Below, in pieces: positions 4,362 to 39,785 of a stretch of DNA of 39,785 nt. The notes below the pieces were generated by a model. The model searched no databases and was not told the DNA's origin. It was given only the letters and a program-made list of their open reading frames with translations. The stretch spans positions 1 to 39,785 of the forward strand of contig PYEQ01000002.1 of the NCBI GenBank assembly GCA_003017785.1, in the 5' to 3' direction. The stretch comes from a filamentous cyanobacterium CCP5 (GTDB lineage: Bacteria > Cyanobacteriota > Cyanobacteriia > Phormidesmidales > Phormidesmidaceae). Positions within the stretch are counted from its first letter, which is position 1. Each line of letters opens with the position of its first letter. Position numbers and translations under genes: made by a program.

Positions 4362-5234
4362 ATGGTTCTCCACGATTCAGCTTCCCCGTCTAATTCTGGC
4401 TATCCGCCTCGCCATCGAGACCGGCTATCTTCTCCGGCTGGCTGGCATCGGCTGGTGTCAGGGGAGGTGCTGGCCCCAGTGCTGGTGGGGGTCGCCATGC
4501 TGGTGCTGTGGCAGCTGGGGGTCTGGATTTTTCAAGTGCCCGAATATCTGCTGCCGGGCCCTATCCGGGTGGCACAGGCCCTGGGTCAGGAATGGTCCGA
4601 GCTGTTTCCGGCGTTGCTGATCACCCTGGAAATTACGGTGGCTGCCTTTGGGGCTGCCACGGTGTCAGGACTGCTGATCGCCGTGCTATTTACCCAGAGC
4701 AAGTGGATTGAGCGCAGCTTTTTTCCCTATGCGGTGATTTTGCAGACGACGCCGATTGTGGCGATCGCCCCTCTGATTATTGTCTGGTTTCAAAACAGCA
4801 CCTTTGCCGCCCTGGTGGTCTGTGCCTGGATTGTGGCTCTATTCCCGATTATTTCTAACACCACCCTGGGCCTCAATAGCGCCGATCACGGCCTGCAAAA
4901 CCTGTTTCAGCTTTACGGGGCCAGCCGCTGGCAAACCCTGCGCTATCTACGGCTGCCCAGCGCCATGCCCTATTTCCTGGGGGGATTGCGGATCAGCGGC
5001 GGACTGGCTCTGATCGGGGCGGTGGTCGCCGAATTTGTCGCCGGTACCGGCGGGGCGCGATCGGGGATTGCCTATCAGATTTTGATGTCCAGCTACAACC
5101 TGCAGATTCCCCGCATGTTTGCGGCCCTGATCATGACCACCGGTCTGGGGGTGCTGATTTTTGTGGCCCTGACCTGGCTCTCCGGTCGGCTGCTGAGCCA
5201 TTGGCATGAAAGCGCCATCCATCGAGAGAATTAG
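4362..5234 (+). CDS. ABC transporter permease, SsuC/ThiX-like
   Basis: Integral membrane subunit of the importer, 290 residues. After about 35 polar residues there are some six hydrophobic segments (starting near LAPVLVGVAMLVLWQLGVWI). The cytoplasmic EAA-type coupling loop is seen as LQNLFQLYGASRWQTLRYLRLPSAMPYFLGG. The sequence PEYLLPGP early in the protein and VVAEFVAGTGGARSGI after the EAA loop are typical of the nitrate/sulfonate/pyrimidine-precursor permease group. It sits between the ATPase gene (11 bases) and the amidohydrolase gene (23 bases), so transport and hydrolysis of the imported compound are probably coupled by one transcript. Confidence 0.92.
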   Translation: MVLHDSASPSNSGYPPRHRDRLSSPAGWHRLVSGEVLAPVLVGVAMLVLWQLGVWIFQVPEYLLPGPIRVAQALGQEWSELFPALLITLEITVAAFGAATVSGLLIAVLFTQSKWIERSFFPYAVILQTTPIVAIAPLIIVWFQNSTFAALVVCAWIVALFPIISNTTLGLNSADHGLQNLFQLYGASRWQTLRYLRLPSAMPYFLGGLRISGGLALIGAVVAEFVAGTGGARSGIAYQILMSSYNLQIPRMFAALIMTTGLGVLIFVALTWLSGRLLSHWHESAIHREN

Positions 5235-5257
5235 GTGATAACTGACGGTATTAACCC

Positions 5258-6601
5258 ATGAGCTGCGTTCCTTTCGTTCACGTTCCCGATAGCCCTCACT
5301 ACTGGCTAACCAATGGTCGGATTCCCAAGGCGCTGCTTGCCTCCACCGATCAACTCACAGCCTTGCCGCAGTTTCTAGACGACCAGCAGGAGGAGCTAGT
5401 CGCCGCTGACATCGAAATCCGTGATGGCCGCATCAGCGCCATTGTGACAGCGGGTGAGGCCCCTGACTCCGGTCTCCGCTGTGACCTGGGCCAGGGCTTA
5501 GTGTGGCCCTGTTTCGTCGACATGCATACCCATCTGGACAAAGCTCACGCCTGGCCCCGCACCCCCAATCCCTTAGGCACTTTTGCCGAGGCGCTAAAGC
5601 AAGCCAATCGCGATCGCCAAGCCTACTGGCGACCAGCCGATCTCAAACGCCGCATGGACTTTGCTCTGGGCTGTAGCTATGCCCACGGCACCCGTGCGGT
5701 TCGCACCCACTTAGACTGCCTCGAAGACCAGGCAGAAACCAGCTTTGCAGTCATCGACGAGCTGCGATCGCAGTGGGCTGGCAAAATCGACATTCAGTTC
5801 GTCAGTTTGGTGCCCATTGAATTTTTCCTGGAAGACAGAGCCCCTGCCCTCGCCCAGTTGCTGGCTAAGTATGGCGGCATTTTAGGGGCCGTCACCTATG
5901 CCCATCCTCAGCTGGAGGCCCAGGTGGAGCGGCTGTTTCAGCTAGCCTCTGACTATGACCTGGCGGTTGATCTCCATGTGGATGAAAGCCTCGACCCCGA
6001 GGATCAGGCCCTAGGGGCGATCGCCCAGATCAAGCTGCGGCAGGGCTTCGAGAACTCCGTCGTGTGCGGCCATGTCTGCAGTCTCTCGGTGCAGTCCGAA
6101 TCAATTGTCAAAACGACCCTGGAACAGATCAAAGCCGCCGATATCAGTATCGTCAGCCTGCCCATGTGCAATCTCTATTTGCAGGATCGCCATCCGGGCC
6201 GGATGCCTCGCTACCGGGGCGTCACCCTCCTCCATGAACTCCAGCATCAGGGGATTCCGGTAGCCCTAGCCAGCGACAATTGCCGGGATGCCTTCTACGC
6301 TTACGGGGATCATGATGGGCTAGAGGTGTTTACCCAGTCGGTGCGGATTGGCCATCTGGATCGGCCCTATGGCTCCTGGCCCCAAGCGGTCACCGTCACT
6401 CCGGCGCAAATCATGGGCCTGGCAGAATCGGGGCGGCTAGGGGTGGGAGCATCGGCAGATTTGGTGCTGTTTAAGGCCCGCAGCCTGAACGAGCTGATTT
6501 CCAGAACCCAGGGCGATCGCGCCGTCCTGCGTCAGGGGCAAGGAATCAATACCACCCCCCCTGACTACGCCGAGCTAGACGATTTGATGGGCTGGGCTTA
6601 G
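5258..6601 (+). CDS. Cytosine-deaminase-like metal-dependent amidohydrolase
   Basis: Predicted cytosolic amidohydrolase of the cytosine deaminase/AtzC-like branch, 447 residues. Metal-binding and catalytic positions are all present: HTH (H90, H92) in FVDMHTHLDKAH, H240 and E243 in DLHVDES, H272 in CGHVC, and D340 in ASDNCRDAF. The order and spacing match cytosine deaminase, where these bind one divalent metal and activate water. Family members deaminate or hydrolyse cytosine, creatinine-like rings, isopropylammelide or hydroxypyrimidines; the sequence alone does not fix the substrate. Its position directly after an ABC importer suggests it acts on the imported compound and releases ammonia or a usable base. 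No frameshift or missing residue is seen. Confidence 0.88.
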   Translation: MSCVPFVHVPDSPHYWLTNGRIPKALLASTDQLTALPQFLDDQQEELVAADIEIRDGRISAIVTAGEAPDSGLRCDLGQGLVWPCFVDMHTHLDKAHAWPRTPNPLGTFAEALKQANRDRQAYWRPADLKRRMDFALGCSYAHGTRAVRTHLDCLEDQAETSFAVIDELRSQWAGKIDIQFVSLVPIEFFLEDRAPALAQLLAKYGGILGAVTYAHPQLEAQVERLFQLASDYDLAVDLHVDESLDPEDQALGAIAQIKLRQGFENSVVCGHVCSLSVQSESIVKTTLEQIKAADISIVSLPMCNLYLQDRHPGRMPRYRGVTLLHELQHQGIPVALASDNCRDAFYAYGDHDGLEVFTQSVRIGHLDRPYGSWPQAVTVTPAQIMGLAESGRLGVGASADLVLFKARSLNELISRTQGDRAVLRQGQGINTTPPDYAELDDLMGWA

Positions 6602-37502: not shown

Positions 37503-37926
37503 CTACAGGTAACAGTTCTGTGAAATCAACAGCTGACGCTCCAGGATTCGGGTTGGCCTGTTGAACACCAGGAGCTTTGCGGTTGCCCTACCCGTTGCCG
37601 TAATTCCCTCGATATGGCCACTGTGTCCACTGTTTAGGGCAAAGTGCTCTGCCCAAGATTGACTGCGAGGGTTGAAAAGGAAAGTAATCTCTCCAGTGGC
37701 CGGGATCGTACGTAGCGAGATCCGTTCCTTTATGGCGGTTATAAGACAGGCAAGATAGGACCAAGTTGTCAGCGGTTGTTTGGCCTCCGTGCTTTTGAGC
37801 GATGATATGGTCTACCTCATGGGTGTAGATAGAGAAGTTCTGATGAATCAAGCCATATTCGCATCTGCCTTTGGCTCGATCACTCACGAATTGCCGCAGA
37901 ACAGCAGAGATTTTAGCAGCGCTTAT
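37503..37926 (-). pseudogene. Decayed HNH endonuclease gene (start lost, frameshifted)
   Basis: The middle part, translated from a GTG at 37887, reads RCEYGLIHQ, THEVDHIIAQKHGGQTTADNL and YNRHKGTDLATYDP, an HNH nuclease with the catalytic DH and N present. At about 37698-37703 an extra G (CCCGGCCACTGGA instead of CCCGCCACTGGA) shifts the frame; in the new frame the sequence continues GEITFLFNPRSQSWAEHFAL and GITATGRATAKLLVFNRPTR to a stop at 37503-37505, just the usual family C-terminus. Two zinc-knuckle cysteines are also changed (CEYG, CLSY). The natural start overlapping the preceding gene reads ATA, not ATG. The gene is almost certainly inactive. Confidence 0.85.
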
Positions 37927-38306
37927 GGATTTCCAGAGGCCATTGCTCGCGCTTTCATAAGCAGCATTAGATGCTCAAGCTGCTCGTAGGCATCAAGCTC
38001 AGCGACTTCAGATTCGCTCAGACTTCCTTCTCGATTTTTGTCTAATAGGGAACTAAGGCGATTTTGGGCGGCGGGTGAGACTTTAAACGCGATGATGTCT
38101 TGAGAGGTGGGGCGCGTGACTAGAAAGTCAAGGACTTCAAGATAAGCTCGGGGAAATTCTGATAGGGTCGCCGTGGAGATCGCTACAGATGTTGCTGCAG
38201 GGCTGTCCGTTCTCACGAGTTGGCTCAATAGCTCGGGCAGGCGATCGCGAAGAGGCTCTAATTGTTCTGCCAACTCGTCGGGGATTTGAATGGTTAGCTC
38301 AGCCAT
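37923..38306 (-). CDS. Small antitoxin-like protein upstream of the HNH gene
   Basis: Protein of 127 residues from the ATG at 38306 (MAELTIQIPDELAEQLEPLR); an upstream ATG at 38345 would add 13. The N-terminus has a beta strand plus helix reminiscent of ribbon-helix-helix or prevent-host-death antitoxins (TIQIPDELAEQLEPLRDRL), and the C-terminal half is helical and acidic (SLSESEVAELDAYEQLEHLM). I do not recognise a named family, but such proteins often precede HNH genes in cyanobacteria. Its stop codon TAA overlaps the former start codon of the HNH gene. Whether it still has a function without its partner is unclear. Confidence 0.75.
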   Translation of the reverse strand: MAELTIQIPDELAEQLEPLRDRLPELLSQLVRTDSPAATSVAISTATLSEFPRAYLEVLDFLVTRPTSQDIIAFKVSPAAQNRLSSLLDKNREGSLSESEVAELDAYEQLEHLMLLMKARAMASGNP

Positions 38307-38560
38307 TGCACGCTCTTGAATATAGTTGGCTTGTCTTGACCTCATTTGAGATCCGTTGCCGAATCTGCTGGAAACGCGGCAATAACTAAGGCCGCAGAAA
38401 ACGCAGTTGAGAAAGTGTGGTGTGAGTTGCGATCACCGCCAAGCATCAGGCTCAATGCATTTTTGAACTGCAGTGAATGCATAGAAGATCCAGATTCTCA
38501 GGCTGCTCCCCAAACAATCAAGTGGGTTAGGCTTTGGGGAACACGTTTCGAGAGTCTCCA

Positions 38561-39785
38561 ATGGCTAGCCGTCTCTGGAAATTTCTGACTATCCCAGTTC
38601 AGGATTTGGTGTCGCTAGATGCAGCAGATAACACAGCAGATGCTGCCGATGCGGTGTTGGGACTGGCTCAGGTATTGGCGGAAGAAGGGCCGAATGTGCA
38701 AAGACTGGCTCCTTTAGTCGGTCAGTTGGATTCCTTGCTGGATGCTTTGAATTCGCCTTTGGGCAAAGTTGTGGAGGCGAGCTTGCCATTTGTTTCGATC
38801 GCCACCGGACTGCTGCGGTTTTATCGAGAGATCACAAAAACTGAGCCGACTCTGGCTCAATCGGTAGCTCTGATTGCTCAGTCAGCTTACTTGGAGAGCT
38901 TTCGAGAACAGGTTCAGAGGCTACCAGAAAAGACACGAGTTGGGCTGGTTGCCGCAAGCCAGAAAAATCTGAGTCTGACCGCTGAGATGAAAGCCCTCGG
39001 CGACCTCGAAATTTCTGACAAAGAGGCTCGGCTGGCGACGTTACATTTTCACGAATCGGCTCTAGCTAAAGCATTTAACGCGGCTCTGCGTTCACGACTC
39101 ATCCAGCTACGAGCTTCGGAGCAGTCCGCACAGAGGTTTACAGAACAGGTAGCCCTCAACACCGAACGATATATGCGAACGGCGATCGCAGAAGCCGGGG
39201 ACTCTGTGCAGCGCGTAACCGAATGGTACCGAGTTGGTGGTGATGCAGTATTTGAGAAGTACCTCAGCATCGACACCTATTTGGAAGAGTGGATTGCTCC
39301 AAAGCCCCATGAGCCGGTATTTGCTGAAGCTTTTTCGTTCAAAGACATCTATGTGCCGTTGAAGGCTCAGCTCCTAACCGCTGCTGGGGAGTCCGATCGC
39401 TCTGTACCAGTGGTGCTTGAGCAGTGGGTGCGACGGCAGCTAAATGACCCTGAGCAAACAGATCGGGTGCTGTTTATTCAAGGCGGGCCGGGGCGAGGTA
39501 AGAGTGTATTCTGTCGCATGTTTGCCGACTGGGTGCGCCGCCATGAGCATCCCCGCTGGACGCCGATTTTGATTCGCCTGCGGGATGTGGCAGTGCTCTC
39601 TAGGGACTTTGAGGAAACCCTGGCTAAAGCAGTAGACCGGGATTTTGCTAAGACCGATCCGGGCTGGCTGAGCGATCGCAACGTCAATTTCCTCTTTATT
39701 CTCGATGGCTTCGATGAGCTACTGATGCAGGGCCGCACCAGCGTCGGGCTAGATGAGTTTTTGACTCAGGTAGAACGGTTTCAGG
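38561..39785 (+). CDS. NACHT-domain (STAND) NTPase, C-terminus off the right edge
   Basis: An open frame begins at ATG 38561 and runs to the window end; 408 residues are visible. Residues 1 to about 270 are all-helical by appearance and lack a known catalytic motif, as in the NACHT N-terminal helical domains described in cyanobacterial STAND proteins. Then the NTPase begins: RVLFIQGGPGRGKSVF with Walker A GGPGRGKS at 308-315, RLRDV, and Walker B FLFILDGFDEL at 377-387 with the extra acidic residues (DGFDE) typical of NACHT. The sensor repeats expected at the C-terminus are beyond the window. STAND NTPases of this type act in signalling and anti-phage defence. The start has only a weak ribosome-binding site. 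Confidence 0.9.
   Translation, partial: MASRLWKFLTIPVQDLVSLDAADNTADAADAVLGLAQVLAEEGPNVQRLAPLVGQLDSLLDALNSPLGKVVEASLPFVSIATGLLRFYREITKTEPTLAQSVALIAQSAYLESFREQVQRLPEKTRVGLVAASQKNLSLTAEMKALGDLEISDKEARLATLHFHESALAKAFNAALRSRLIQLRASEQSAQRFTEQVALNTERYMRTAIAEAGDSVQRVTEWYRVGGDAVFEKYLSIDTYLEEWIAPKPHEPVFAEAFSFKDIYVPLKAQLLTAAGESDRSVPVVLEQWVRRQLNDPEQTDRVLFIQGGPGRGKSVFCRMFADWVRRHEHPRWTPILIRLRDVAVLSRDFEETLAKAVDRDFAKTDPGWLSDRNVNFLFILDGFDELLMQGRTSVGLDEFLTQVERFQ

Follow-up and report, generated by a model that had tools for sequence, protein, structure and literature searches.

An NNH3-NACHT STAND gene at a cyanobacterial contig end and a family of solo NNH3 genes in a sister genus

Bacterial NACHT proteins studied elsewhere are proven anti-phage proteins (PMC12169576). 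The bacterial NLR-related proteins are designated bNACHT (Kibby et al. 2023, as cited in PMC12169576). Furthermore, TRADD-N, EAD and ternary conflict systems have been described from multicellular bacteria (PMC8195603, PMC7159879). NNH-domain NACHT proteins are common in cyanobacteria, and in the literature searched we found neither a described NNH3 activity nor experiments on any NNH3 protein. Here, we describe an NNH3-NACHT gene in a window of 39785 bp, the whole stretch of DNA analysed; the window spans contig C445 in full, one of 906 contigs in a draft assembly.

The NNH3-NACHT gene and its full-length relatives

A reading frame starting at ATG 38561 comprises 408 codons and stays open through the final contig base, 39785. 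It contains the following features:

38561..39785, + strand: 5' part of the NNH3-NACHT STAND gene, open at the contig end (open reading frame; homologues)
38699..39340, + strand: NNH3 domain (PF22735), residues 47-260 (Pfam E 5.2e-55; genome search E 2.3e-55)
39464..39785, + strand: first part of the NACHT NTPase domain (PF05729 positions 1-96 of 167)
39482..39505, + strand: Walker A GGPGRGKS, residues 308-315 (sequence; kept in homologues)
39695..39721, + strand: NACHT-type Walker B FILDGFDEL, residues 379-387 (sequence; DGFDEL invariant across 35 aligned sequences)

The preliminary description of this DNA had named a NACHT STAND NTPase from its two Walker motifs. Both motifs are confirmed at 39482-39505 and 39695-39721, and a Pfam NACHT match bears out the identity. 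The protein carries a NACHT module with Walker A and a D-G-x-D-E Walker B. Its cut NACHT domain (E 1.6e-05) reaches 25.3 bits against a Pfam cut-off of 26.7 and lies above the cut-off in a second search; the NACHT domains of full-length relatives score 29.7-44.6 bits, above the Pfam cut-off. The helical stretch noted ahead of Walker A is present, at about 307 residues rather than about 270. The N-terminal domain, previously listed as unassigned, is assigned by profile search to Pfam's NACHT N-terminal Helical domain 3 (NNH3), with a bit score of 187.2 against a curated cut-off of 27. The missing 3' remainder of the gene was not found in the assembly, where only unrelated pentapeptide proteins matched. 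Across the same genome, a limit of E <= 0.001 yields 13 NACHT-like matches, of which 11 exceed the Pfam cut-off.

The homologue set comprises 80 loci from public cyanobacterial genomes, and a homologue was found in 34 of 59 related genomes. Full-length homologues are 57-71% identical to the window protein, the nearest relatives belonging to Halomicronema, Nodosilinea and Tildeniella (about 70% identity). The intact relatives scanned consist of NNH3, NACHT, a helical region and pentapeptide repeats, and some additionally contain TPR or match a receiver-like domain weakly; the tripartite layout envisaged at the outset is thus seen in full-length proteins. One NNH3-NACHT-pentapeptide protein (L027:8001-11732) bears a weak C-terminal match to the response-regulator receiver domain (PF00072, E 0.0016). 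The most conserved region is NACHT, with a median pairwise identity of 60%; nearly all homologues keep the Walker A consensus G/A-x-P/A/T-G-R-G-K-S. Among close homologues, NACHT is 83-91% identical compared with 34-66% for the helical and repeat parts, and the C-terminal repeats are the most variable in length (0-271 residues). Judging from these orthologues, the window's own copy would continue into a C-terminal part of the same kind. In a predicted structure of a full-length homologue (pLDDT 80), the best Foldseek matches are NLRP3, NOD2 and NLRC4 (E ~1e-8).

We consider it probable, by analogy, that the window gene encodes a cyanobacterial NLR-related STAND protein in which NNH3 delivers an output after a trigger, most likely against phage. 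As in NLRs, the C-terminal helical and pentapeptide-repeat part would sense the trigger and keep the protein shut. Upon trigger binding, the NACHT domain would exchange or bind ATP and oligomerise, and oligomerisation would cluster the NNH3 domains. The clustered domains may then execute, or pass on, a response that is lethal or arrests growth, with phage as the most likely target. The sequences and models themselves establish the domains, their order in relatives, the intact ATPase motifs, the NLR-like fold, the variable C-terminus and the existence of solo NNH3 genes. The oligomerisation, the trigger and the response would follow by analogy with NLRs, and the immune role by analogy with bacterial NACHT proteins that have been tested (PMC12169576). 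The gene, which had been put forward as the likeliest site in the window for an undescribed system, instead adds a further protein to the known bacterial NLR-related (NACHT STAND) group.

Genomic context and distribution

Two genes on the opposite strand precede the NNH3-NACHT gene:

37588..37920, - strand: degraded HNH endonuclease gene (PF01844 E 7.8e-10; reading frames; intact relatives)
37923..38345, - strand: gene for a 140-aa protein, lying 5' of the HNH gene (the pair is found elsewhere without NACHT)

The adjacency of these genes to the NNH3-NACHT gene, across 216 bp and on opposite strands, could suggest that all three form one defence system. The data already contradict this, and we regard it as highly improbable. 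The HNH gene is broken, as the preliminary description had noticed: from about 37705 the reading moves to another frame, and two of the motif cysteines are lost (CEYG/CLSY in the window, CEYC/CLSC in relatives). Of the five closest relatives examined, four also have the 140-aa and HNH genes together; the two are a separate two-gene cyanobacterial module found elsewhere without NACHT, and no homologue of either gene was detected in the NACHT loci searched.

At 34 homologous loci, the adjacent genes are a mixture of chromosomal ones, with housekeeping genes that change from locus to locus. We compared the nearest genes (134 proteins) with those four or five positions away (115 proteins) in plain tallies, without a significance test. 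Matches to known defence genes (PADLOC) are scattered singles, similar among nearest and more distant neighbours. The earlier suggestion of a defence island is therefore unsupported, there being no enrichment of defence genes beside the 34 loci relative to distant positions. Nor do these loci share a recurrent partner gene. Uma2 endonucleases, considered as a partner, account for 6 of the 134 nearest and 2 of the 115 distant proteins; they lie downstream at several loci but are of differing kinds and absent from most, and we do not count them as a component. The same Uma2-family gene follows a full-length NNH3-NACHT gene at two loci and a solo NNH3 gene in L125. The Uma2-family genes are located at:

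L025:11051-11698, L026:11215-11862, L108:12195-13052 and L125:4110-4763: Uma2-family genes

NNH3 occurs in 33 of 291 sampled genomes of the phylum, with few exceptions within a long open frame, and in 38 of 65 genomes of the window's own family. There are several copies per genome. Plasmid matches are confined to four records, and the phage records searched contained no NNH3-NACHT. In Nostoc and its relatives, the neighbourhood is conserved, with a WD40 gene upstream of the NNH3-NACHT gene. Because the near and far tallies are alike, plasmid records are few, phage records lack the gene and the Nostoc neighbourhood is conserved, the NNH3-NACHT gene has the character of a chromosomal accessory gene that stands alone, not of a component of a defence island.

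The same observations allow a non-immune role to be weighed, in which the protein would integrate a signal from metabolism or development and a regulatory partner would dock onto NNH3. A chromosomal location beside housekeeping genes, the scarcity of plasmid records, the absence of phage records and a Nostoc-group neighbourhood conserved as if vertically inherited are in keeping with such a signalling protein. We nevertheless judge it unlikely, given an occurrence that is patchy even inside one family, the several copies per genome and the variable C-terminus. The patchy presence across the phylum resembles that of accessory genes and counts in favour of the NLR-related reading. Weighing against that reading are the lack of any PADLOC model match, the absence of defence-gene enrichment beside the homologues, and an NNH3 domain for which neither a catalytic motif nor a solved relative was found.

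Solo NNH3 genes and the role of the domain

The predicted structure of the window's NNH3 region (pLDDT 81.5) is all-helical. Compared with the PDB and with viral models, it yielded no match at E <= 0.001; searches for solved relatives of the cut protein and of the NNH3 profile were likewise negative, and no catalytic motif was found in NNH3. A HeLo/MLKL-type helical bundle was considered and is unsupported by the same fold search. When NNH3 was tried as a membrane helix, its best 19-residue stretch had a hydropathy of 1.40.

Seventeen genomes of one sister genus (g12, Nodosilinea-like) have stand-alone NNH3 genes encoding 222-229 residues:

L104:8078-8752, L105, L106, L107 and L118-L130 (in L119 at 5082-5756): solo NNH3 genes of genus g12

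All solo proteins stop shortly past a shared domain position (~171 of 213 in the profile), and all 17 frames are intact inside the domain. Pairwise dN/dS ranges from 0.07 to 0.38 with a median of 0.20 (46 pairs with dS below 1), and the corresponding region of three full-length genes gives 0.10-0.14. These ratios indicate that the solo genes are kept under purifying selection. In 12 of the 17 genomes, some of them fragmented assemblies, no other NNH3 (NNH3-NACHT) protein was detected. Because conserved stand-alone genes are under purifying selection, mostly in genomes with no detected NNH3-NACHT protein, NNH3 has a selected function of its own that does not require NACHT in the same protein.

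The solo genes occupy several loci, where their neighbours are housekeeping genes (methyltransferase, phosphofructokinase, FAD-binding protein). At one locus, they occupy the place of the full-length gene (L025:8001-10712) and Uma2 of Tildeniella; DNA identity is lost close to where the solo frame stops and returns downstream of both. At another, the solos of L125 and L128 stand in place of the full-length gene of L026/L131. In the tree, the solos group with one full-length gene inside (L133, the same gene as L025; support 98/90), and two label changes suffice for the solo/full-length pattern. A single origin is compatible with these data. The solos could derive from one truncated gene that moved or from repeated truncation, and either several losses or recombination could have placed L025 inside the solo clade.

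Within the NLR-related reading, a sub-question is whether NNH3 is an adaptor and not the effector, such that NACHT oligomers would display NNH3 and recruit a separate effector encoded elsewhere. We see this as a serious possibility, falling somewhat short of an even chance. An all-helical predicted fold with neither a catalytic motif nor a solved relative would suit an adaptor, and a solo NNH3 protein could be a partner or competitor, for which CARD-only and PYRIN-only proteins provide a parallel. A recurrent effector gene is, however, absent nearby, and in 12 of the 17 solo genomes no NNH3-NACHT protein was detected for which NNH3 could be the adaptor. With such a partner lacking from most solo genomes, an effector (or free regulator) accounts for the solo genes no less well than an adaptor does. 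NNH3 may act as an effector, given that stand-alone genes for it are under purifying selection. More tentatively, and on balance doubtfully, NNH3 could be an effector of death or defence, or a regulator, that works autonomously and without its NACHT switch; it would have a fold lacking a solved counterpart and be maintained in one genus as a solo family truncated at a common domain boundary.

The solo genes provide comparative evidence for NNH3 as a functional unit and offer a small protein for direct activity tests. The solo family is the part of these findings most deserving of specialist attention.

Comparison with known systems

Animal NLRs (NLRP3, NOD2, NLRC4) share with the NNH3-NACHT proteins an N-terminal domain, a NACHT with helical regions and C-terminal repeats, but the latter proteins have pentapeptide repeats in place of LRR, and NNH3 has no solved-fold match. 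The antiviral STAND (Avs) systems follow the same STAND switch logic, yet no PADLOC model matched the window protein (E 1) or four full-length relatives (E 0.1). TRADD-N, EAD and ternary conflict systems are likewise cyanobacterial and modular, with STAND NTPases that go together with repeats of the pentapeptide or TPR kind (PMC8195603, PMC7159879); TRADD-N, EAD, vWA and MoxR components were absent from the homologues scanned. The proven bNACHTs described in PMC12169576 carry a PD-(D/E)XK nuclease or SNaCT domain, whereas the window protein carries NNH3. With bNACHT proteins that combine PF22735 and PF05729, the window protein shares the N-terminal NNH3 domain, the central NACHT and, as seen in its relatives, the C-terminal repeats.
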